Shown: positions 20,032-43,666 of the stretch, in pieces
Layout: the number at the start of each line of letters is the position of its first letter
Position numbering within the stretch: position 1 is the first letter of the stretch
Assembly (NCBI GenBank): GCA_020849295.1
Contig: JADLGN010000033.1
Span: forward strand, 1 to 64,000
Reading direction: 5' to 3'
DNA length: 64,000 nucleotides
Source: Bacteroidia bacterium
GTDB lineage: Bacteria; Bacteroidota; Bacteroidia; NS11-12g; UBA9320
Notes under the pieces: model-generated
The model's database searches: none
Seen by the model: only the letters and a program-made list of their open reading frames with translations
Told to the model about the DNA's origin: nothing
Program-made: the position numbers and the translations under genes

Positions 20032-22470
20032 ATGAAAATCATAAAATTAGTAATTATGCTTTCTGTTTTTGCCTTATATGGCAATGCACAAAATGATGTA
20101 AAAACCTATATTAACGATCCGTACGACCACTCTCGTGAGCACTCTGCCGACATAACAAATATGAAAGTTGAAGTTTCGTTTGATTGCCCAAATGGCAAAG
20201 TTACAGGTAAGGTTACTCATACTTTTATAGCATTAAGGAACAATATTGATACATTATTTTTTGATGCCCCTCAAATAAAAATACTATCAGCAATTATAGA
20301 CGGTAAAGAGTGTAAATTTAGTACAAATACAGATGGGGTTACGGTTTACTTTAATCAAAAATTATCAAGTGAAAATATATACAATCTCACATTTACTTAC
20401 GAAGCTACTCCTAAAAGAGGAATTTATTTTATAGGTTGGAAAAATCAAAACATTACTGATGCACGAAATCAAACCAGAAAACAAATATGGACTCAAGGGC
20501 AAGGCATAGACAATCGACACTGGATACCGATGTACGACAATATGAATGATAAATTTACAACAGAAACCATAGTTACTTTTGACAAAGAATACAACGTACT
20601 TTCAAATGGAATATTGAAAAGCGTAAAAAACAAAAATGACAAAACTAAAATTTGGCATTATGCAATGACAAAACCTCATGCCGGATACTTGCTAATGCTT
20701 GCAATTGATAAATATTCTGTTAAAAAAACAAAAACAAAAACAGGTGTACCTGTATCGTTCTGGTATTATCCTGAGTTGCCGGAAAAAGTAGAACCTACGA
20801 GTATTCATACTGAAAAAATAATAGAATTTTTTGAGTCGGAAACCGGAATTGCATATCCTTGGGAAAGCTATTCGCAAGTTATGGTTCAAGATTTTATTTA
20901 TGGAGCAATGGAAAATACAACTGCTACAGTTTTTGGCGATTTTTTTAATGTTGATAGCAAAGCCTTTGAAGACAGAAATTATATAAGTGTAAATGCTCAC
21001 GAACTTGCACATCAATGGTTTGGAGATTTGATAACAGCCCGTACAGGAACAGATGCTTGGCTTCAAGAAAGTTTTGCAACATTTTATTCAAAGCGATTTT
21101 TTAGTTTAATAGAAGGCTCAGACAAAGAAAAATTTATAAACAAACAAGAAATTATTTCTGCCATTAAAGCTTCAGAAAATGATAATTTTCCAATAAGACA
21201 TTCGTCGGGAGGAACTTCAAGAGTGTACCAAAAAGGCAGTTCTGTTCTAAGTATGTTGCGTTACGTTATGGGAGATGAAGCATTTAAGAAAACTATTAAA
21301 TATTATCTTACACAATATTCTTATAAAAATGTAGAATCAAAAGATCTCGAAAAATCTATTCAAGATGCAACCGGATTAAACCTTGATTGGTTTTTTGACC
21401 AGTGGATATATCGAGGAGGCGAGCCACATTACAAAATATCATATAACAAAGTAGAAGGATTTACAAATATTAATGTTGAGCAAATTCATAAAATAAATGA
21501 ATTAATTAAAGTGTTTAAAATGCCAATAAATTTTGCTGTTTATTATAAAGATGGAAGTGTATCAAGAAAACAATTTTGGATTGATAAACAAACTCAAACT
21601 GTAGCTATTCCTAATGAATACAACAAGCAAATAGCTTTTGTACTTTTTGATGAAAATTGTGAAATCACAAAAAAAGTAACCTTTAATAAAAGCAATGAAG
21701 AACTGCTTGCTCAATTTTTAGAAGCAGACAGTATGATAGATAGATATGACGCATTACTTGAATTGAAAAACACAAAAACAGAAACAAAAAGAATTGCACT
21801 GATTGAAGCCTATAAGCGTGAAAAATTTGTACCAATTAAAGCTGAAATTATAGCACAACTTGCTATTGACGAAAGTTCGCAAGATTTTTTAGTTTCTGAA
21901 GCGGCAGGATTTAATTCTGAAATTGCAAAACCATTTATAAATAATATAAAGAATATAGCACCTGACTTAAAGAAAATTCTTGTTAGGTACATAGAAACGG
22001 GTTCTTACGATATTATTGAAAAGTCATTATTAAGGCTGTGTTCTGATTTTAAAAATGAAGCAATAGATTACTTAAAGAAAATTGAAGATTTATATATAAA
22101 TAAAAAAATATATGGTCAAAATAATAACTTGTATATAAAATTTCTAGAACTTTCAGTTTTGAACAATTACAATGCAATTGAAAATACTGCTACACTCGAA
22201 CAGTTATCGTCAGATTTATATGAGTTCCGTACCAGAATAGCTGCAATGGAAGCACTAAAAAGACTTGGAATTTGCAATCAATCTTCAATTTCAAAAATGC
22301 TTGATGCTGCACTTAGCAACAACGGGCGGCTGGCTGCTCCAGCCAAAAATATCCTTAAATATTTTGCTGAACAAAGCAAGTATAGAATATTAATAAAAGA
22401 TAGCATTGATAAAACAAATTCTTATACTGACGCAGACAAAAAAATTTTTAAAGATGGCGGGTTTTATTAA
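20032..22470 (+). CDS. Secreted M1-family metallopeptidase
   Basis: 812 residues with a signal peptide (MKIIKLVIMLSVFALYGNAQ). M1 signatures are all present: GAMEN at 291-295, zinc motif HELAH (His323, Glu324, His327) and the third ligand Glu346 (WLQESFATF), with a further Tyr in the VYQKGSSVLSML region. After the catalytic domain (to about 475) there is a long helical C-terminal part like the ERAP/TAF2 repeats. It should be a zinc aminopeptidase in the periplasm or outside the cell, cutting N-terminal residues from peptides. No T9SS sorting domain is present. The lipoprotein gene follows after a few bases. Confidence 0.95.
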   Translation: MKIIKLVIMLSVFALYGNAQNDVKTYINDPYDHSREHSADITNMKVEVSFDCPNGKVTGKVTHTFIALRNNIDTLFFDAPQIKILSAIIDGKECKFSTNTDGVTVYFNQKLSSENIYNLTFTYEATPKRGIYFIGWKNQNITDARNQTRKQIWTQGQGIDNRHWIPMYDNMNDKFTTETIVTFDKEYNVLSNGILKSVKNKNDKTKIWHYAMTKPHAGYLLMLAIDKYSVKKTKTKTGVPVSFWYYPELPEKVEPTSIHTEKIIEFFESETGIAYPWESYSQVMVQDFIYGAMENTTATVFGDFFNVDSKAFEDRNYISVNAHELAHQWFGDLITARTGTDAWLQESFATFYSKRFFSLIEGSDKEKFINKQEIISAIKASENDNFPIRHSSGGTSRVYQKGSSVLSMLRYVMGDEAFKKTIKYYLTQYSYKNVESKDLEKSIQDATGLNLDWFFDQWIYRGGEPHYKISYNKVEGFTNINVEQIHKINELIKVFKMPINFAVYYKDGSVSRKQFWIDKQTQTVAIPNEYNKQIAFVLFDENCEITKKVTFNKSNEELLAQFLEADSMIDRYDALLELKNTKTETKRIALIEAYKREKFVPIKAEIIAQLAIDESSQDFLVSEAAGFNSEIAKPFINNIKNIAPDLKKILVRYIETGSYDIIEKSLLRLCSDFKNEAIDYLKKIEDLYINKKIYGQNNNLYIKFLELSVLNNYNAIENTATLEQLSSDLYEFRTRIAAMEALKRLGICNQSSISKMLDAALSNNGRLAAPAKNILKYFAEQSKYRILIKDSIDKTNSYTDADKKIFKDGGFY

Positions 22471-22491
22471 ACCTTGCAATATTTTGTGAAT

Positions 22492-23151
22492 ATGACAAAA
22501 TCATTATTATTATTAATGCTACTAACATGTCTTTCGTCATGTTTTGAGATTTTAGAAGATATTAGTTTTAAAAAAAACGGTTCAGGAACTTTTAAATATG
22601 TTATTAATTTAAGTGAAAGTAAAACAGAAATAAACTCACTAATGAAACTTGACAGTAACTCAGGTTTTAAAATACCCAAAATAAAAGAAATAAATGATAA
22701 ACTGAATAAAGTAGAGCAAACATTAAAAAACTCAGAAGGGCTTAGCAATATTATTGTTAAACGCGATTTTAAAAACTGGATTTTTGAAGTAAAAACCGAC
22801 TTTGACAATTGTCAAAATCTTGAAAAAGGTATAAGTAATTCATTGAATAATATTGACAAAAGAAGCAAATTAATTCTTAATAATATTTTTAGATTTGAAA
22901 CTAATAAAATGCAAAGAAACACAACAGAAATTGACAAAACAGAAATTAAAAAAATGAATAAAAATACTGTTAAAAAAATATTTTCTAAAGCAAAATACAC
23001 CGCTATTTACAGGTTTGAAAACACGATAGAAACTTACAGTAACAAAAACTCAAAAATTTCGGCAAGCAAAAATGCAATAATGATAAGTTGTAATTTGCTA
23101 AATTTAATAAACGGAAAAGAAACTATATCAAACATTATAACAATAAAATAA
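22492..23151 (+). CDS. Hypothetical lipoprotein
   Basis: 219 residues from ATG 22492 (a TTG six codons upstream is less likely). Residues 1-18 are a lipoprotein signal ending in LSSC. The rest is a mixed domain beginning with FEILEDISFKKNGSGTFKYVINLSE, a pattern of strand and turn seen in several Bacteroidetes lipoproteins of unknown function, and then Lys/Asn-rich helices. It follows the M1 peptidase closely, and its stop codon is immediately followed by the ATG of the next gene, so the three are probably one operon. Confidence 0.8.
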   Translation: MTKSLLLLMLLTCLSSCFEILEDISFKKNGSGTFKYVINLSESKTEINSLMKLDSNSGFKIPKIKEINDKLNKVEQTLKNSEGLSNIIVKRDFKNWIFEVKTDFDNCQNLEKGISNSLNNIDKRSKLILNNIFRFETNKMQRNTTEIDKTEIKKMNKNTVKKIFSKAKYTAIYRFENTIETYSNKNSKISASKNAIMISCNLLNLINGKETISNIITIK

Positions 23152-25179
23152 ATGAAAAAATATCTAATTTTAATTTTATTATTAATTTCAATCATTGCCC
23201 ATTCGCAAACTCCCGAAAAACTCGTACCTGCAAATGCTGACTTTGTAATTTCGATAAATCTTGCATCTCTTTCACAAAAAATTAATTTTAATGATTTGGG
23301 AAATTACTCCTTTTTACAAAATAAAAATAAAGACAATACGGTAAATACACAGGCTTTTATTAAAGAATTATTTAGGATGCCTGAAAAAGCCGGTTTTAAT
23401 GTAAAAGGAAAAATTTTGTTATTTAGCGAAAACCACGACTCAATAAGTAATTTTACTTATGTTGTTTCAATAACAAATAATAAACTTTTTAAAAAACGAG
23501 TAACTGAAATATTGGGGACAATAAAAAATGAATTGAAATTTTCTAAATACGGTAAATTCGAAATATTAAATTACAACAACAGTTTAAGTATTTCTTGTTC
23601 AAAAAATGTAGCATTGATTTCAATATGGAGCCGTCCATACTACTACTCATACAATGACGAAGAGCTTTATAACATAGAAAGAAACAAAGTAATTAATATT
23701 ATAGACAGTATTAGATATTCAAAAAACCAAATTCCACCGGATTTAAACGAAGTAATTAAATCTGACACTATATTGGATAAAAAAAATGAGGAAAATTTTG
23801 ACTCAAATGAAATAATTGATTCTACTGTAATAGAAGAAGTATTGCCAGACGTGCCTTATTACGATTACGATTATAGTAATGATTCATTAATTAAGCAATT
23901 TGAAAGAAACTGGACAGCTAAACTAAGAGAAAAGGAAGCAAAATTTTGGCATTTGCATGATGAAAAAATGTCTCAAAACCATATAAAGTTATTTACACAA
24001 AAAAATAACACACAAATGATAGCAGACAAGGGATTTGCCGATGTTTATAATACAGGAAATGATTTTACCCTGTGGATACCATTAAGTGTTTACTCAAAAA
24101 AACTAATTTCGATGTTTGATAAGAGAAAAAATTATTATCAAAATAATGATACAGCAAAAAATAAGAAAGAAATTGTTGTTGAAAAACAAAACACACTCTC
24201 TGAATTATTTGATAACAATAAGTTTTTTGGAATTGGAAACTTTGAAAAAGGTAAAATAGAAATGAATTTTAATTTCGAATTCAATAATAAATTAAAAGCT
24301 CATATTGAAAAGATAAATAACGGCAATATAAATCCTGAATTTTTCAAATATATTAAATCTGATAATCTTATGGGACTTACCTGTATGAGTATAAATGTAG
24401 AAGCATGGTCAGATTTTTACATTGATATTTTTAAAAGGGCTATAGAAAGCAACAATAATGCAGATAAAAAATTTGCAATTGGGCTTGAATTACTTGATTT
24501 GTTTATAAACAAAGATGTAATTTTTCACACTTTTAAAGGTGATGCTGCACTTGCATTTACCGGAATGAAATCTTATCTTAAAACATTCAATACGTGGGAG
24601 TATGATTCTTTAACTTTTGAGAGCCGAATTGTACAGCAAACCAAAACTAAATATATTCCTGAGTTTGTATATATTCTCACAATTGAGAATAAGTCAAATC
24701 TCGATAAAATTATTTCATTGCTAAACCGACTTGAAGCTATAAAAGAAAACGGTAAAAATATTTGGACTATTAATTCAGGTAAAAATGAAATAGACAGTAG
24801 CTTTTTTATTGTTACCAAAGACAATTTGTTCTTTATAACTAATGATAAAAAGCTTGCTAAAGAACAAATTTACGGAAACCTTTCATCAACAAGGGTAGTT
24901 GCAAATACATACAATTCGTATTTATCAAGTTCAAGTTTTGGTTTTTGGGACGCTTCAATAATGTTTAAACTTATGGCAGAAAACAATGAAACCAAAGAAT
25001 TTGGCAATTCTGCATTTCTTAATAAACTTGGCGAAAAAATTAACAATGGATTTTATTATGCCAAACCAATAAAATCTAACCAAAGTGAAACATCTGTTTC
25101 GATTGAACTTAAAAACCGAGAAAACAGTAGTTTACTTGAAATTTTAAACTTATTCGATGATTTGAATAAGATTAAATAA
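23152..25179 (+). CDS. Secreted protein, DUF4836-like
   Basis: 675 residues with a signal peptide (MKKYLILILLLISIIAHSQ). The start of the mature part (LVPANADFVISINLASLSQKI) and the repeated ferredoxin-like strand/helix pattern resemble the DUF4836-type Bacteroidetes proteins of unknown function. An Asp/Glu/Tyr-rich linker (about residues 195-260, including PDVPYYDYDYSND) separates two halves. The start codon directly follows the upstream stop. I see no catalytic motif and no sorting domain. Its first 130 residues align by eye with the next gene's product (PANADFVISIN against PKDVSFCITIN; AGFNVKGKILLF against SGFNPLGNFVVF). Confidence 0.75.
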   Translation: MKKYLILILLLISIIAHSQTPEKLVPANADFVISINLASLSQKINFNDLGNYSFLQNKNKDNTVNTQAFIKELFRMPEKAGFNVKGKILLFSENHDSISNFTYVVSITNNKLFKKRVTEILGTIKNELKFSKYGKFEILNYNNSLSISCSKNVALISIWSRPYYYSYNDEELYNIERNKVINIIDSIRYSKNQIPPDLNEVIKSDTILDKKNEENFDSNEIIDSTVIEEVLPDVPYYDYDYSNDSLIKQFERNWTAKLREKEAKFWHLHDEKMSQNHIKLFTQKNNTQMIADKGFADVYNTGNDFTLWIPLSVYSKKLISMFDKRKNYYQNNDTAKNKKEIVVEKQNTLSELFDNNKFFGIGNFEKGKIEMNFNFEFNNKLKAHIEKINNGNINPEFFKYIKSDNLMGLTCMSINVEAWSDFYIDIFKRAIESNNNADKKFAIGLELLDLFINKDVIFHTFKGDAALAFTGMKSYLKTFNTWEYDSLTFESRIVQQTKTKYIPEFVYILTIENKSNLDKIISLLNRLEAIKENGKNIWTINSGKNEIDSSFFIVTKDNLFFITNDKKLAKEQIYGNLSSTRVVANTYNSYLSSSSFGFWDASIMFKLMAENNETKEFGNSAFLNKLGEKINNGFYYAKPIKSNQSETSVSIELKNRENSSLLEILNLFDDLNKIK

Positions 25180-25221
25180 AATTACATTATAAAATTTTAT
25201 AGTATTATTGTTTTTGTTTTA

Positions 25222-25243
25222 AATAAAAACGCATGTTTTTATT
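25222..25243 (+). terminator. A/T hairpin directly before a start codon
   Basis: AATAAAAAC (25222-25230), loop GCAT, GTTTTTATT (25235-25243); ATG of the next gene is at 25247. It could be a weak terminator for the gene ending at 25179 or a leader structure occluding the start. All but one of the nine pairs are A-T, so stability is low. Confidence 0.4.
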
Positions 25244-25246
25244 GCT

Positions 25247-26485
25247 ATGAAAAAGAAAATTATATATATCATTTTTGGGCTTTTTGTATTGGCAATAGTC
25301 GGATATTTTATATATACATTTTACATATCAAGAATAGATGTTTTAACACACATACCTAAAGATGTAAGCTTTTGTATAACCATAAACAAGAAAAAAATAT
25401 CAGAAGAAATTACATATCTTGATTTATTAAAAAGAGATACTCTGGTAAAAACGGCAAAAAGCGGAATTATTGTTCAAACACAAAAGATAATAGACGTCTC
25501 TGGGTTTAATCCACTCGGTAATTTTGTAGTTTTTGGCAAGAATACTTATTATTCTGTTGCTTGGTGCGGAGTTTCTAAAAAAGCTTTTTATAATTATCTA
25601 AAAAAGAAAAATCAAAAAATTGTTACAAATAAAAATTTCGAATATACTGTATTAAAAAACAATTATTTTCTATGTTTTGATTGGCCTATGATATTATTAA
25701 GCAACAAAATGCCTGATGTCCAAAACGGATTTTTTTCGAATAATTCAAATAAACTATCTACAGATGAACTAAAAGATGAGACAAATAAAAAAAGTACAAT
25801 TTATGGTTTTATAAAACCTGATACTAATTTATTTCCACTTTTAAATATTCTTCCAATAAAAGAAAAAGCATTTATATCAATAAATATAAGTGAAGATGAA
25901 ACTATAATAAGTCTGATACAAAAAAATTACAAACCAAATGGTAATAATTTTATACCCGAAATTAACCAAAAATGTATAATGAAATTGAGCTGTCCATGGG
26001 TTTTTAGTAATATTGATTCATTTAAAATTTTACCTTCAGAAATTAAAAATTCTTTTAAAAATATTATGGCTAAACCAGTAAATCATGTGAATTTAGAAGT
26101 ATTGGATACTATAACATCAAACGAGCAAGTGATTACTTACGATATGGATGCTGATTTTAAGCTTACTCAAAAAATCAATGTAAGGCAAAAAGTTTATCCT
26201 GGCTTATATTTAGAGCTTTTTAAAAACAAAACAGATAGTGTAAATGCTGTGATAAAAAGCGATTTTTTTAAGTTTAACTTATATGAAACGCCGAATTCAT
26301 ACATCTTAAAAAGTGGTGAAAAATCATTTAAAACTTTGCCATTTTGTTACCTATACGCAAATGTAGAATTATTGCAATATGACCCTTTCTGGAAAAATTA
26401 TTGTATTTCGGCAATAAAAAAAATAATTATTTTTACTTCTGCTCAAAAAAAGGGTAGCAAAATAAAAATAAAAATTACCTATTAA
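25247..26485 (+). CDS. Membrane-anchored protein, distant paralogue of the preceding gene
   Basis: 412 residues. One N-terminal membrane helix (IIYIIFGLFVLAIVGYFIYTF, about 4-25) without a cleavage site suggests an inner-membrane anchor with a periplasmic body. The body begins LTHIPKDVSFCITINKKKISEEI, matching the start of the mature part of the upstream protein, and later shares the SGFNPLGNFVVFGK pattern. No known domain is recognised with confidence. Its stop shares TTAA (26482-26485) with the converging beta-helix gene. An A/T hairpin sits just before its ATG. Confidence 0.75.
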   Translation: MKKKIIYIIFGLFVLAIVGYFIYTFYISRIDVLTHIPKDVSFCITINKKKISEEITYLDLLKRDTLVKTAKSGIIVQTQKIIDVSGFNPLGNFVVFGKNTYYSVAWCGVSKKAFYNYLKKKNQKIVTNKNFEYTVLKNNYFLCFDWPMILLSNKMPDVQNGFFSNNSNKLSTDELKDETNKKSTIYGFIKPDTNLFPLLNILPIKEKAFISINISEDETIISLIQKNYKPNGNNFIPEINQKCIMKLSCPWVFSNIDSFKILPSEIKNSFKNIMAKPVNHVNLEVLDTITSNEQVITYDMDADFKLTQKINVRQKVYPGLYLELFKNKTDSVNAVIKSDFFKFNLYETPNSYILKSGEKSFKTLPFCYLYANVELLQYDPFWKNYCISAIKKIIIFTSAQKKGSKIKIKITY

Positions 26486-27861
26486 TTTTTGATAAACCTT
26501 GAATGAACGCTTTTATTTTGAGAGTAAATATTGATTAAATAAATACCTGCAGGAATTGTTGACACATCAATCATTAAATTAAAATTACCAAATAAAATCA
26601 ATTCTCCGTTTATACTAAAAATTTTAAAACTGCCATTTTTCATATTTTCAATAAAAACATTATCTGAAGCAGGATTAGGGTATATTTTTATTATTTTTTT
26701 AAGTTTTGAATTATTGTAAACAGAAGAACAATATTCATAAGCTCCTATGTCTAATGTAGAATTACTGCATCTGTTATCTTCAGAAACTGGATGTACATAA
26801 ATTTTATCAGGCAATAAAGAAAAACTACCTTCTTTTCCGGGATCAGTACCTTTGTTTAATGCATTTGTACTATTTTTGGTTAGGTTAAAATCAAAATTAT
26901 CAAAATCTATAAACAAAGTGTACGGACTTATATTTGAGGCCGAGTCAAGTATATTTGGCAATGTACCTGTAGTGAATTTAATAGTTCCATAGAAAATATT
27001 ATTATATGCTTTCAGGTAATCAGTTCCGGCTTTAAAATCGAAAACTGAACCACTATTCTTCTTATTTACAATAGTATTATTAATAGAAAAAACCTTATGA
27101 CTTCCCGGATTAGAAAGACCTTCAAGCCCAAACCCAATCATGTTTGAGTTTTGAGAATTTGCACCTTGTTCTATAATATTACCTATTATAAAAGCTCTGC
27201 CACCATTTGGCAAATCAATATTTCTACTGTCTTTGCCTTTTTCTGATGAAATACGATTGTATAAAATATAATTGTTGTATGCACGGCTTTTTACTTCATG
27301 TCCTACATCGGCATCGTGAGAGTAATTGTATCTGAATAAAAAAGTATCAATATGGTTTACATAAATATTGTGAGAGTATCCGTCACCATATCCATTATAT
27401 GAAAATTCAGAATGTTCAACAATTAGCTTACAATTTGCAATATCTCCAACCAAAAATCCCATTTCGTTATGATGAAAAAAACAATTTATTACTGTAAGAT
27501 TTGCAGCTTCCAATCTTATACCAGCTCCATTATGGTCAGGTACTCTACAATTGAAAAATTCAATATTTTCTACTTTTGTATTTTTACCTGCTATTACCCA
27601 AATTGCCTTGTCTCCATAGCTTTTACCTTGAGCATCAAGTCTTGCCCTGCCATTTATACCTCTAAGTAGCAAATCAGTTGCTGTCCATTTTGCAACATCC
27701 ATTGTGTAAAGTCCTGAATCTATATCAACAGTATCACCATTTGAAACTAAAGTACTTACTTTGCTTGGACTTGTATAAGTTCTTGTTTTCCCTACTTTCC
27801 ATATTTTTGAATAACTATGAAAAGTTAAAAAAACTAAATAAAATAAAATAAATTTTTTCAT
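26482..27861 (-). CDS. T9SS-sorted right-handed beta-helix protein
   Basis: 459 residues with a signal peptide (MKKFILFYLVFLTFHSYS). Residues about 60-330 show the repeated short-strand pattern of parallel beta-helix (NosD/pectate-lyase-like) proteins: NTKVENIEFFNCR, NLTVINCFFHHNEMGF, KLIVEHSEFSYNG, NIYVNHIDTFLFRYNYSHD. The last 70 residues are a T9SS type A sorting domain (KIYPNPASDNVFIEN, ending SRFIKN). It is likely a surface polysaccharide-binding or -cleaving protein; catalytic residues cannot be assigned. Its stop codon overlaps the stop of the plus-strand gene ending at 26485. Confidence 0.9.
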   Translation of the reverse strand: MKKFILFYLVFLTFHSYSKIWKVGKTRTYTSPSKVSTLVSNGDTVDIDSGLYTMDVAKWTATDLLLRGINGRARLDAQGKSYGDKAIWVIAGKNTKVENIEFFNCRVPDHNGAGIRLEAANLTVINCFFHHNEMGFLVGDIANCKLIVEHSEFSYNGYGDGYSHNIYVNHIDTFLFRYNYSHDADVGHEVKSRAYNNYILYNRISSEKGKDSRNIDLPNGGRAFIIGNIIEQGANSQNSNMIGFGLEGLSNPGSHKVFSINNTIVNKKNSGSVFDFKAGTDYLKAYNNIFYGTIKFTTGTLPNILDSASNISPYTLFIDFDNFDFNLTKNSTNALNKGTDPGKEGSFSLLPDKIYVHPVSEDNRCSNSTLDIGAYEYCSSVYNNSKLKKIIKIYPNPASDNVFIENMKNGSFKIFSINGELILFGNFNLMIDVSTIPAGIYLINIYSQNKSVHSRFIKN

Positions 27862-30194: not shown

Positions 30195-33170
30195 ATGAAA
30201 TTTTATCACTTTCTAATTGCTGTACTTTTTGCTTTTGCATTTAATAAAGTACAGTCTCAATCTGTTTTTCAAGCAAAATGGCAACAAACAGTAAATTACA
30301 AAATAGATGTATCGCTTGACGAATACAATCATTTATTGCGAGGTTTTGAAACCATAGAATATCAAAATAACTCACCTAATGTAATAAATGAAATTTATAT
30401 ACACTTATGGCCCAATGCTTATAAAAACAATTCTACTTCATTTGCTTTAAATTTACAGGAAGAGGGAAATTTTAATTTCAAAAATTCTACTGATATACAA
30501 AAAGGATACATTGACTCATTAGATTTTTTTATAGATGGGAAAAGTACAGTTTGGTCTTTTGATACCAAAAATGTTGATGTTGCTAAAATTACACTAAACA
30601 AGTCTCTTCAAAGCGGGCAAAAGTGTATTATTTCAACTCCTTTTTTAGTTAAAATACCTGATATTTTCTCAAGATTTGGTCATTATGGCAATAGCTACAA
30701 TATCACACAGTGGTATCCAAAGCCTGCGGTTTATGATACAAATGGTTGGAACATTATGCCATATTTGAATCAAGGAGAATTTTACTCAGAATATGGAAAT
30801 TTTGAAGTGAATATTACATTGCCAAAAAATTACGTAGTTGCAGCTACTGGTAAGCTACAAGATAATTATGAAGTGCTATTTAGAAACATGAAAGGCAAAA
30901 CTACCGGGGTAATTGAAAATACCTTTTGTAAAACCCCTCTAAAAACTTTAAAATTCAAACAGGAAAATATTCACGATTTTGCATGGTTTGCTTCAAAACA
31001 ATATGGAATAAGATATAGTAATTTAGAAATAGGTGGTAAAACCATAGACACATATATTTTTAGTGAAGATTACAAAGACTTGTCGTATGAAAATATGGAA
31101 TCTATTAAAAAAGCTGTAATGTATTACTCTGACAAGGTTGGATATTACCCTTATGAACACGTAACAGTAGTTCGCAGTAAACTAAAAGCTGGCGGAGGTA
31201 TGGAATACCCTATGATTACAGTTTGTGATATTCTGAATGAAGAAATAATTATTCACGAGGTTGGACACAACTGGTTTTATGGAATAATAGGAAGTAACGA
31301 AAGAAGATATCCATGGATGGATGAATCAGTAAATAGTTATTTTACCGAAAAAACTATTACAGACTATCGCAAAAAAAGATTTATTGAATTAAAAAATCCG
31401 ATTATGGCTGATTTGAATTCAATAGCTTTATATCAAATGGCTATAAATGCACTACGTGAAAACAAATCTCAATCAATTACTCTTAATTCTGCTGATTATA
31501 GTGAAACAGACTACGGTACTGTAATATATGGCAAAGGTGCTTATGTATTAAAGCATCTTGCTGACTTTCTCGGAGAAGATGTATATTTTAAATGTTATAG
31601 AAAGTATTTTGATCTATGGAAATACAAGCATCCCTTGCCCGGAGATATGCAAAAAATATTTGAAGCTGAATCAGGGAAAAATTTAAACTGGTTTTTTAAT
31701 GATATTTTAAACAATAAGCAAGAGATGGATTTTAAAATTAAAAGTATAAAAAAACAAAATAACATGTTTGCTATAAAGCTGAAAAAAAAGAATTACAGCA
31801 GTGTGCCGGTTTCTATTACATTTTATGAAAACAATAAAAAACTATGTAAAATATGGTCTTCGCAAACAGATACCTTGGTAAAATACGATTCTACTTATGG
31901 TTTTACTCATGTAATTATTGATGAGAGCAAAAATATTTTTGAATCAAACATAAAAAACAATGTATATATTAACAGAATTGCATTCAGACATATTTACAAA
32001 CCACAAATAAATCTCGGCTCTGGTCTTGATATTACTAATAAAACTATAATTTATGCCTTGCCTCTTATTGCTTATAATATTCATAATGGATTTATGCTTG
32101 GTGGGGCAATTCACAATTTTACTTTTCCTTATCAAAAATTTGAATATTGGTTTTCGCCATTTTATTCATTTCGCTCTAAAACATTAGATGGATACGCAAA
32201 CTTGAATTACAGATTAATCCCTAAAAAACATTTTCAATCTATAATTATTGGAATGAAAAACTCAAGTTTTGTGTATTTGCCTGCGGCTAATTCTGAAAAA
32301 TTCAAATATTATCGTTCAAAAATATATACCCAAATTAATTTCAAATCAAAAAATCCCAAAAGCAAAATTAATAATGCACTGTTAATTGAATACAACAATG
32401 TAAAGGCAATATGGCTAGAGAAAATATCAGAAGAACCAGACAGTAACAGAAAAAAACAATGGTTTATAAACAACACCGAAGATATTAAATACCACAATTT
32501 GAAATTTACTTTTAATCATTCAAATTCAAAAGTAATAAACCCTTATTCTTTTAAAATTTTTGTAGAAGCTGGCAAATACAAATCGTCAGATAGCGCATAT
32601 TTGAAACCTGGCTTAGAAGTAAACTATTTCAAAACTTATAAGAAAAAAAACAAAGGCTTTGCAGTGCGGTTTTTTACAGGAACTTTCTTTTCTAAGCAGG
32701 GATTTGACAATGGACTATTTATGTATCGTCTGGGCTCAAAAAATGGATTGTATGACTACAATTTTGATAATGCACTTGCAGGCAGAGGTGCAAACAGCGG
32801 ACTTTGGAGCAGAAATATTATAGCCGGAGAAGACAATATGAAACTTGTAGGCACATTAGGCAATTTTTCAAAAGCTTTTGCAACGCTTAACTTGAGTACT
32901 ACTATCCCAGGAAAAATACCTCTTAGATTTTATTCTGACTTTTGTTTTATGAGAGACTCGCTTCTGTACAATACAAAGGGTAATCCTCAAATGTTTATAT
33001 TTTCGTCAGGTATTGCTATTGATGTAATTCCTGATATTTTAATAATACACATTCCATTTATTCAGTCTGAGGCATTATCAAATAATAAATTCGGAGATAA
33101 TATTTGTTTCACTTTAAAATTAAATGAACTTGAACCTCACAATTTGATAAAAAAGATTAAATTGTTTTAA
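30195..33170 (+). CDS. M1-family metallopeptidase fused to a probable outer-membrane beta-barrel
   Basis: 991 residues with a signal peptide (FLIAVLFAFAFNKVQS). Residues about 25-560 are an M1-type peptidase: GGMEY (334-338), zinc motif HEVGH (His354, Glu355, His358) and third ligand Glu377 (WMDESVNSYF). From about residue 590 to the end the sequence changes to alternating hydrophobic/polar strands with aromatic girdles and Lys/Asn turns (PFYSFRSKTLDGYANLNYRL, GFAVRFFTGTFFSKQG, PLRFYSDFCFM), like a transmembrane beta-barrel. A peptidase tethered to the outer membrane by its own barrel is the simplest reading. The barrel call is by pattern only. Its stop overlaps that of the converging ABC gene in TTAA (33167-33170). 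Confidence 0.85.
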   Translation: MKFYHFLIAVLFAFAFNKVQSQSVFQAKWQQTVNYKIDVSLDEYNHLLRGFETIEYQNNSPNVINEIYIHLWPNAYKNNSTSFALNLQEEGNFNFKNSTDIQKGYIDSLDFFIDGKSTVWSFDTKNVDVAKITLNKSLQSGQKCIISTPFLVKIPDIFSRFGHYGNSYNITQWYPKPAVYDTNGWNIMPYLNQGEFYSEYGNFEVNITLPKNYVVAATGKLQDNYEVLFRNMKGKTTGVIENTFCKTPLKTLKFKQENIHDFAWFASKQYGIRYSNLEIGGKTIDTYIFSEDYKDLSYENMESIKKAVMYYSDKVGYYPYEHVTVVRSKLKAGGGMEYPMITVCDILNEEIIIHEVGHNWFYGIIGSNERRYPWMDESVNSYFTEKTITDYRKKRFIELKNPIMADLNSIALYQMAINALRENKSQSITLNSADYSETDYGTVIYGKGAYVLKHLADFLGEDVYFKCYRKYFDLWKYKHPLPGDMQKIFEAESGKNLNWFFNDILNNKQEMDFKIKSIKKQNNMFAIKLKKKNYSSVPVSITFYENNKKLCKIWSSQTDTLVKYDSTYGFTHVIIDESKNIFESNIKNNVYINRIAFRHIYKPQINLGSGLDITNKTIIYALPLIAYNIHNGFMLGGAIHNFTFPYQKFEYWFSPFYSFRSKTLDGYANLNYRLIPKKHFQSIIIGMKNSSFVYLPAANSEKFKYYRSKIYTQINFKSKNPKSKINNALLIEYNNVKAIWLEKISEEPDSNRKKQWFINNTEDIKYHNLKFTFNHSNSKVINPYSFKIFVEAGKYKSSDSAYLKPGLEVNYFKTYKKKNKGFAVRFFTGTFFSKQGFDNGLFMYRLGSKNGLYDYNFDNALAGRGANSGLWSRNIIAGEDNMKLVGTLGNFSKAFATLNLSTTIPGKIPLRFYSDFCFMRDSLLYNTKGNPQMFIFSSGIAIDVIPDILIIHIPFIQSEALSNNKFGDNICFTLKLNELEPHNLIKKIKLF

Positions 33171-41728: not shown

Positions 41729-43666
41729 ATGTGTGTATTAAGAAATTGCTTATTTCTAATTGTTACAACAATTTCACTTTTTTCTTTTTCACAAAACGAT
41801 TATGAGCAAATAATTAAAAACGAAAAAAAAAAAATTGACAGTAAATTATTGTTTAAAAAATCAATATTAACTGAAAGTTATAATATAGTTTATCATCGTT
41901 TAGAGTTTGACTTGAAATTAGACAACAACTATCTTTACGGGAAAATTACAACTTATTTCAATCCATTAAAACCCGCATTTAATATTATTCAGTTTGACGC
42001 AGAAGATTATCTAAAAATAGACTCAGTAATTTATAAAAATGAAAAAATGAGTTTCATTCATTCAAACAAGCAGCTTACAATTAGTTTATCAAAAAATATT
42101 GAAATAGGAACGCTTGATTCGCTTTCTGTTTATTACCAAGGAAACCCTGGATTAAATAATCCTTATAAAAGTTTTGTATTTGACATGCATAATGCTAATG
42201 ACTTGCACCCGGTTGCATGGACATTGTCAGAGCCTTATGGTTCTAAGGGTTGGTGGATTTGCAAAGAATCATTATCAGATAAAATTGATTCAACAGATAT
42301 TCTAATTAAAGTAAAGAAAGGTAATACAGCAGTATCTAACGGTTTGCTTGTTTTTGAAAAATCAATAAACGATTCTCAGGTTTTATTTCATTGGAAACAC
42401 CGTTATCCTATTGCCACATACCTTATTGCAATAGCTGCAACAAATTATATAAGATATAGTGACAATGTAATTTATAATGTAAATGATACATTGCCTATCG
42501 AAAATTTTGTTTATCCCGAAAGTGAAAATGAAGCAAGAATTAAGACTCCTCAAACAATAAAAATGATAAAACTATATGATAGTTTGTTTGGAGTATTTCC
42601 TTTTAAAAAAGAAAAATACGGACATGCTCAGTTTGGTATAAGTGGTGGTATGGAGCATCAAACTATAAGTTTTATGGGAAGTTTTAATTTTGATCTTACT
42701 GCACACGAACTTGCACATCAATGGTTTGGTGATGCAACTACTTGTGGTTCTTGGAGCGAACTTTGGCTTAATGAAGGATTTGCAACATATCTGAATATGC
42801 TATGTTATGAAAATTTTGTATCAGGCAAAGAATTTACTTCTAAAATGGAAAACCTGAATGCAGATATTACGAAAGTGTCTGACGGCTCAGTATATATAGG
42901 CGACACAGCAAATACTAGCAGATTATTTAGCGGAAGACTAACATACTCAAAAGGTGCATTTTTGCTTCACATGCTTAGATGGAAAATAGGCGATAATGCA
43001 TTTTTTGGAGGGGTAAAAAATTATCTTCAAAATCCTAAATGTAAATACGGATTTGGTACTACCCAACTTTTAAAAAACGAACTTGAAAATAGTTCAGGAA
43101 AAAATCTTGATGAGTTCTTTAAAGATTGGTACACTGGTGAAGGTTTTCCGCAGTTTGATATAAGTTGGGGTAATAAAGGAAATAAAATTTGGATAAGAAT
43201 TAATCAAACACCAAGTCATCATAGTGTGCAATTTTTTAATATTCCGTTACCATTCTTAATTAAAGGAATAAGTAAGGATACAATTTTGGTTTTTGACCCC
43301 ATAAGTAAAGACAACACTTTTACCGAAACATTAGATTTTTTACCTGAAGAAATAATTTTTGATCCTCAAAAATGGATTTTAAGCAAATCATTCATAAGTA
43401 AAATAACTGATCAAACATTGCCTGAAGTAAGTATTTATCCGAATCCTGCTTATGATTTTTTGAACTTGTACTGTTACAAATCGCAAATTTTAAAAATTGA
43501 AGTTATTGATTTTTCAGGAAAAACGGTTTATAAAAATGATTATGAATCTGACAAAATAATTAAAAACCATAATTCAATTGATATAAGCAAATTTTGTGAA
43601 GGCATATACATAGCAAAAGTTCAAACATCAAATGGTAATGTGCCAATAAAATTCATTAAAAAATAA
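41729..43666 (+). CDS. T9SS-sorted M1-family aminopeptidase
   Basis: 645 residues. A signal peptide (CLFLIVTTISLFSFSQ) is followed by an M1 catalytic region: GGMEH, zinc motif HELAH (His326, Glu327, His330) and Glu349 (WLNEGFATYL), with SKGAFLLHMLRWKIG after it. The large helical C-terminal domain of longer M1 enzymes is missing. Residues about 560-645 are a T9SS type A sorting domain (VSIYPNPAYDFLNL, EVIDFSGKTVYKND, ending VPIKFIKK). It is therefore likely a surface or secreted zinc aminopeptidase. It is a single gene between tRNA-Cys and atpD. Confidence 0.95.
   Translation: MCVLRNCLFLIVTTISLFSFSQNDYEQIIKNEKKKIDSKLLFKKSILTESYNIVYHRLEFDLKLDNNYLYGKITTYFNPLKPAFNIIQFDAEDYLKIDSVIYKNEKMSFIHSNKQLTISLSKNIEIGTLDSLSVYYQGNPGLNNPYKSFVFDMHNANDLHPVAWTLSEPYGSKGWWICKESLSDKIDSTDILIKVKKGNTAVSNGLLVFEKSINDSQVLFHWKHRYPIATYLIAIAATNYIRYSDNVIYNVNDTLPIENFVYPESENEARIKTPQTIKMIKLYDSLFGVFPFKKEKYGHAQFGISGGMEHQTISFMGSFNFDLTAHELAHQWFGDATTCGSWSELWLNEGFATYLNMLCYENFVSGKEFTSKMENLNADITKVSDGSVYIGDTANTSRLFSGRLTYSKGAFLLHMLRWKIGDNAFFGGVKNYLQNPKCKYGFGTTQLLKNELENSSGKNLDEFFKDWYTGEGFPQFDISWGNKGNKIWIRINQTPSHHSVQFFNIPLPFLIKGISKDTILVFDPISKDNTFTETLDFLPEEIIFDPQKWILSKSFISKITDQTLPEVSIYPNPAYDFLNLYCYKSQILKIEVIDFSGKTVYKNDYESDKIIKNHNSIDISKFCEGIYIAKVQTSNGNVPIKFIKK

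Follow-up and report, generated by a model that had tools for sequence, protein, structure and literature searches.

A 64,000-nucleotide stretch of a Bacteroidia genome (GenBank assembly GCA_020849295.1, contig JADLGN010000033.1, positions 1 to 64,000; hereafter the window) carries a conserved, tightly spaced three-gene envelope module. The module encodes a lipoprotein (Lp), an exported protein of the DUF4836 family (D) and an N-terminally anchored protein (T). Family profiles indicate that D and T are diverged paralogues over most of their length. The predicted folds of D and Lp resemble lipid-associated proteins, and the trio may form a relay for amphiphiles across the periplasm. All four annotated genes (the trio and the gene of an M1 family metallopeptidase preceding it) are present on the plus strand of this AT-rich contig (Table 1). 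In the window Lp and D are separated by 0 bases, and D and T by 67 bases.

The three-gene unit and its conservation

Lp, D and T were identified in 7/7 genomes of the genus, in the same order and orientation. The M1 gene adjoins the trio in 2/7 (the window and G001). Its orthologue is present in all seven genomes; in the other five it lies on another contig, is 64-66% identical, and a different gene pair is found upstream of the trio. Thus, the conserved unit is the trio and not four genes, and the M1 peptidase is a passenger with no part in the module. The four-gene cluster with the peptidase, put forward in a preliminary description of this DNA, was accordingly rejected, and of the gene neighbourhood proposed there Lp, D and T are kept far beyond the genus. 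In one genus genome (G005) the D gene is split by a stop into pieces of 370 and 308 amino acids (aa), with Lp and T whole (L041:9595-11649, the same contig as L057:5992-8046).

A profile of ten Lp sequences (A3) searched over 295 genomes of the class gave any match in 52, and a profile of eight D sequences (A1), searched over a class draw of equal size and make-up, gave any match in 44. Cuts for strong matches were set after viewing the lists (expectation value (E) below 1e-30 for Lp with A3 and below 1e-17 for D with A1), and the weaker matches were dropped (21/52 Lp genomes and 13/44 D genomes). Three of the 13 weak D genomes were read (G019, G071, G164), and these carry a second DUF4836 type, linked to ATP-binding cassette (ABC) transporter genes and described below. 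Strong matches to Lp were found in 31 genomes, to D in 31 and to both in 30. In the genome with Lp only (G075), a weakly matching DUF4836 gene stands alone on a different contig (L050), and the genome with D only (G432) carries the ABC-linked type. The Fisher p for co-occurrence is 9e-39, a descriptive value given that the genomes are related. Outside families f1 and f8, the sources of both profiles, D is present in 20/21 Lp genomes. Because profiles A7 and A10 derive from loci beside Lp, searches with them are partly circular, and they were left out of the co-occurrence counts.

Lp lies directly 5' of D in 29/30 genomes; in the exception (G325) Lp is apart, with D and T adjoining. T lies directly 3' of D in 23/29 testable genomes, across 8 families of the draw, plus f2 (G347 is untestable because the contig ends). 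A second D copy is found in tandem between Lp and T in G281 (L136:4537-9641). In the order to which the window belongs, profile search found a D match in 30/108 genomes, and 16 places among these 30 genomes were read. Seven of these places are f2 loci in which both Lp and D are intact; T is present in five, and the other two stop at a contig end. The gap between Lp and D ranges from -118 to +51 bases in 49 loci, and that between D and T is at most 112 bases in 39/40 pairs, the exception being the pair with the second D copy between. In total, the Lp and D genes are found in ten groups at family level within the class (f2 and nine from the draw). Neighbours of the trio were annotated in part of the loci, and flanks vary by lineage (e.g., a chaperonin gene upstream in Crocinitomicaceae-type loci and the different pair in the genus).

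Distant Lp-family lipoproteins are encoded at L157-L161 and L165-L170, with no D or T profile match beside them. The Lp family therefore seems wider than the trio.

Table 1. Features of the window and sets of related loci in other genomes (topology assigned by eye from the sequence)
Feature	Position or loci	Strand	Description
Lp, lipoprotein	22492-23151	+	219 aa; lipobox Cys17, then F-E-I-L-E-D; GSG at 30-32; LppM-like predicted fold
D, exported DUF4836 protein	23152-25179	+	675 aa; signal peptide by inspection, without lipobox; TP0453-like predicted fold
Long beta-hairpin of D	24532-24684	+	residues 461-511, strands 461-485 and 490-511 (DSSP on model)
T, N-terminally anchored protein	25247-26485	+	412 aa; single hydrophobic stretch at about 5-25; diverged paralogue of D
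M1 family metallopeptidase	20032-22470	+	812 aa; PF01433 145 bits, E 2.9e-42; neighbour only, outside the conserved module
ABC-linked DUF4836 loci	L046, L048, L049, L051, L179-L183, L185, L186, L190		L050 has the DUF4836 gene alone, with no ABC pair
Loci with MlaE near the trio	L052, L061, L064, L065, L066, L071, L131, L132, L135

Other genes of the window were noted. M1 peptidases are defined by HExxH-x18-E plus GxMEN, and in the M1 neighbour HELAHQW, the later E and GAMEN are visible in the translation, as expected for the catalytic domain. In addition to the gene itself, window genes at 30195-33170 (E 3.9e-8) and 41729-43666 (E 5.3e-35) match the M1 protein, and the genome total is 7. The convergent minus-strand neighbour at 26482-27861 overlaps the end of T by 4 bases, and its C-terminus presumably resembles a type IX secretion sorting domain.

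Relationship of D and T, and the Lp family

D is a clear member of DUF4836 (PF16120, 58.7 bits, E 6.8e-16, above the gathering cut-off of 27 bits) and has a variable acidic insert at residues of about 190-300. The window T has no Pfam match, including PF16120, and is not a DUF4836 member by Pfam's rule. PF16120 is matched at E up to 0.1 by 9/25 T homologues, with a best value of 2.8e-15. Position and a length of 390-560 aa served for the first assignment of T genes, which were then checked with profiles from which their own family had been left out. These leave-family-out profiles recovered 41/41 T at E 5.5e-6 or better (5000 proteins), with values from 1.3e-14 to 2.6e-6 for the 8 members from f1.

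The preliminary description had pointed to an N-terminal pattern shared by D and T. This likeness is real and significant at the level of families but not in the two sequences alone: BLASTP of the window D against T gave a non-significant E of 0.10. Small genus-level profiles of D and T gave hhalign 43% (A1-A2), with 10.7% for A1-A4 and 0.9% for A2-A4, and are too thin to decide. Alignments of 49 D and 41 T sequences gave 99.6% with E 5.9e-24 in the HMM-HMM comparison, which bears out the suggested relationship; controls gave 0.5% when T columns were reversed and 0.0% for five column shuffles. Nine loci repeating the same contigs were removed before these sequences were counted, and the D set omits the broken G005 gene, the second G281 copy and genes cut by contig ends. 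The seven T proteins of the genus match the 34 others over their full length (97.9%, E 6.4e-13), and those 34 match D (99.8%, E 1.1e-28). Compared directly with D, the genus T proteins match in the N-terminal part only (87%, E 4e-6). We conclude from these profiles that D and T are diverged paralogues over most of their length. A structural check had also been suggested; D was modelled, as was Lp, and the relation to T rests on profiles. A relationship of Lp to D and T was rejected, at hhalign probabilities of 1.6% and 0.9%. The distinction drawn earlier, with one protein exported and the other tethered, agrees with the signal peptide of D and the N-terminal anchor of T.

A second shared feature, absent from the preliminary description, lies towards the C-terminus. 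It has the form Y-D ... F, with 14 residues from F to P in both window proteins, and in D it falls in a long beta-hairpin. Among the 49 D sequences conservation is 94% for G463, 94% for Y484, 96% for D485, 71% for F489 and 96% for P503. Among the 41 T sequences it is 95% for D301, 100% for F304 and 63% for P318. This hairpin signature may be a docking point. A motif search by regular expression over D and T gave nothing useful. Two anchored proteins of 909 aa with a similar start (L187:1894-4623 and L188:2431-5160) have a match to the T profile that is limited to its first 46 positions, and neither the D nor the T model gives a whole-protein match to them.

No Pfam family is matched by more than 1/32 members of the Lp family (the best is the lipid-attachment-site model, 4.3e-4), and an NCBIfam scan of the three window proteins and five homologues found matches for 0/8 at E 0.01. 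The lipobox cysteine column is C in 55/55 family members. From this cysteine on, the sequence reads C-F-E-I-L-E-D in the window and mostly C-(F/I)-E-x-x-(E/D)-(D/E) in the family. Surface export (LES) signals of three Bacteroidota species are given as K-(D/E)2, Q-A-(D/E)2 and SDDDD/SDDFE-like after the cysteine in the accessible part of one report (PMC5080379). These published motifs are absent after the Lp cysteine, although the clade may use signals of its own. Because they are absent, our best guess is that Lp is most likely located at the inner face of the outer membrane.

Predicted folds and a candidate periplasmic relay

The AlphaFold model of D has a predicted local distance difference test (pLDDT) of 79.7 and a predicted template modelling score (pTM) of 0.74, with poor order around residues 192-238. 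Its top five Foldseek rows are chains of TP0453, a Treponema pallidum protein (probability 1.00, E 1.3e-3 to 2.7e-3), and other rows among the best 50 have a probability of 0.63 or less. VIA-align superposed the D model and TP0453 with Z 11.1 and a root-mean-square deviation (rmsd) of 5.7 over 237/247 residues; the next protein has Z 6.9. For Lp (pLDDT 86.7, pTM 0.82) the best Foldseek match is the Mycobacterium tuberculosis protein LppM (2nc8, probability 1.00, E 3.6e-5), and VIA-align gave Z 9.0 and rmsd 3.5 over 144/171 residues, with 4% identity over the aligned part.

In the available portions of PMC5421087 and PMC7521688, TP0453 is tied to the inner leaflet of the outer membrane, has amphipathic helices that insert into membranes and is proposed to carry lipids and glycolipids. 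It was used as a negative control in the accessible text of PMC3406077, and in that of PMC10353723 and PMC5956850 it appears in reference lists only. LppM binds phosphatidyl-myo-inositol mannoside, according to the accessible part of PMC6151718.

Genes near D and its relatives also bear on function. The second DUF4836 type (about 510-720 aa, a lipoprotein or anchored) occurs without Lp or T beside it, and in 12/13 loci read the next genes downstream encode an ABC ATPase and a permease of about 400 aa. The three ATPases scanned all match PF00005. Among five permeases scanned for an FtsX domain, three are above the cut-off, one is just below and one has no match. Ten of the ABC-linked DUF4836 proteins were compared and gave E 3e-45 against D and E 1e-27 against T, which places them nearer to D; the PF16120 score of this type, 118-181 bits, is higher than that of D. 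Since DUF4836 occurs next to an ABC transporter in one setting, the handling of envelope cargo becomes likelier in the setting of the trio. In one clade, 9 distinct loci encode an MlaE permease and ATPase some 2.7 kb beyond T, with two genes of opposite strand in between; this lends weak support to a lipid function, and BLAST (E 1e-15) did not find MlaE near the trio in loci of other lineages. One ABC-linked DUF4836 protein has a weak PF11832 match, below the cut-off, and distant M1 relatives lie about 6 kb from the ABC-linked DUF4836 gene at L048.

We suggest, tentatively and at somewhat less than an even chance, that the trio is a relay across the periplasm, between the two membranes, whose amphiphilic cargo would be a phospholipid, a glycolipid or an acylated protein. 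T, held at the inner membrane by its N-terminal anchor, would take the amphiphile. D, as a soluble periplasmic protein, would carry it or bridge the gap, and Lp would receive it at the outer membrane through its LppM-like domain. The lipid handling is suggested by fold and the membrane sides by the sequence; the direction of transfer is a guess.

Several results weigh against such a relay. A shared fold does not establish a function, the structural matches here are of moderate strength, and lipid binding by Lp, D or T is a prediction made from fold. The fold evidence covers models of D and Lp, with T placed by profiles. The Foldseek E for TP0453 is only 1.3e-3 at best, with an rmsd of 19 over Foldseek's own alignment. 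The Z of LppM is just one unit above that of FMO proteins (8.0), which makes the Lp match weaker than that of D, and a note with the VIA tool describes a best Z of 7-8 as typical of models without a clear match. Sequence searches of the PDB with an E limit of 5 retrieved TP0453 neither with profile A5 (D) nor with A7 (T), and profile A8 (Lp) did not retrieve LppM. D lacks the lipid anchor of TP0453. A crude pattern flags a lipobox-like stretch in 3 distinct D homologues (L043, L068, L148), so solubility may not hold for D in every genome. No transporter is found beside the trio throughout. The trio is also incomplete in places: T is missing beside D in 6/29 testable genomes (G059, G063, G122, G267, G321, G351), and in G474 (L171) a 14-kb stretch holds D and T but lacks Lp.

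Other functions would fit part of the same evidence. The trio could span the periplasm as a sensor or scaffold, reporting the state of the envelope or positioning proteins with no lipid moved. The same topology fits this function, as do the well-kept residues at the turn of the long hairpin, which could form a docking tip. In addition, structural alignments of the first half of D reach Z 6.9 with TM1622 and Z 5.2 with the C-terminal domain of RseB, a sensor of envelope stress, and a sigma-70 gene lies 3' of T on the same strand in G011 (L043:6273-7136). However, Z values of 5 to 7 are common for unrelated folds, according to the tool's note, and the sigma-70 gene was seen in one lineage only, among partly annotated neighbours, so that a regulator may yet recur. 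T has almost nothing on the cytoplasmic side. We consider a sensor or scaffold doubtful, with a real but minor chance of being correct.

The ABC pair seen in 12/13 loci raises a further possibility, that DUF4836 proteins work in the periplasm as partners of mechanical ABC systems of the FtsEX kind, which switch cell-wall enzymes. In that case the trio would have lost its ABC part or would borrow one. FtsE is the best NCBIfam model for the one ATPase scanned, at 108 bits against a cut-off of 265, but for the one permease scanned in the same way FtsX models (cut-offs 225-255) gave no more than 22 bits. Transporters of the LolCDE and MacB types also use permeases with an FtsX domain, and no ABC pair was seen directly beside the trio, which makes this explanation unlikely. 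A peptide-processing unit of the M1 peptidase and the trio is suggested by the end of the M1 gene 21 bases before Lp in the window and by its position before Lp in G001. As a conserved unit it is refuted by the adjacency in 2/7 genus genomes, with orthologues elsewhere in 5, and by another set of 16 loci, among which the M1 orthologue was found in L037 only. We regard such a unit as highly improbable; a shared function may exist in this species alone. Of these explanations, we prefer the amphiphile relay.

Comparison with known systems

DUF4836, PF16120 and DUF3352 are not mentioned in the openly licensed PubMed Central papers searched, and the system may have been published under another name. 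DUF3352 was included in view of the weak PF11832 match of one ABC-linked protein. The lack of a paper on DUF4836 or PF16120 in that set is in keeping with the earlier suggestion of an undescribed module. With its first two genes spread over ten family-level groups, the trio offers a specific candidate system for moving lipids or lipoproteins in Bacteroidota. It includes an Lp family that lacks a Pfam model, and two of its predicted folds recall envelope lipoproteins from other phyla that are associated with lipids.

With LolA/LolB of Bacteroidota, the trio shares an idea only, that of periplasmic and outer-membrane proteins handling acylated cargo (accessible part of PMC11885536). No LolA/LolB row is among the listed structure matches for D and Lp, which does not exclude a LolA/LolB fold. 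How lipoproteins arrive at the surface without LolA and LolB in Bacteroidota was described as an open question in 2025, in the same accessible text (PMC11885536). The trio might provide such a route, with the ABC-linked DUF4836 type as its energised cousin, although we think it quite improbable that this is its role. In the case of Mla phospholipid transport, MlaE and its ATPase are near, not adjacent to, the trio in the 9 loci noted above, and by Pfam none of the three proteins belongs to Mla.

Within DUF4836, D is distinguished from the ABC-linked type by its greater length, its acidic insert and its position between Lp and T. Lp resembles LppM (Rv2171) in being a lipoprotein and in its predicted fold, and differs from it in sequence, at the 4% identity given above. 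D resembles TP0453 in predicted fold, and both are envelope proteins, TP0453 of a bacterium with two membranes. TP0453 is a lipoprotein of 287 aa, according to the available portions of the papers cited above, whereas D lacks a lipobox and has large insertions.

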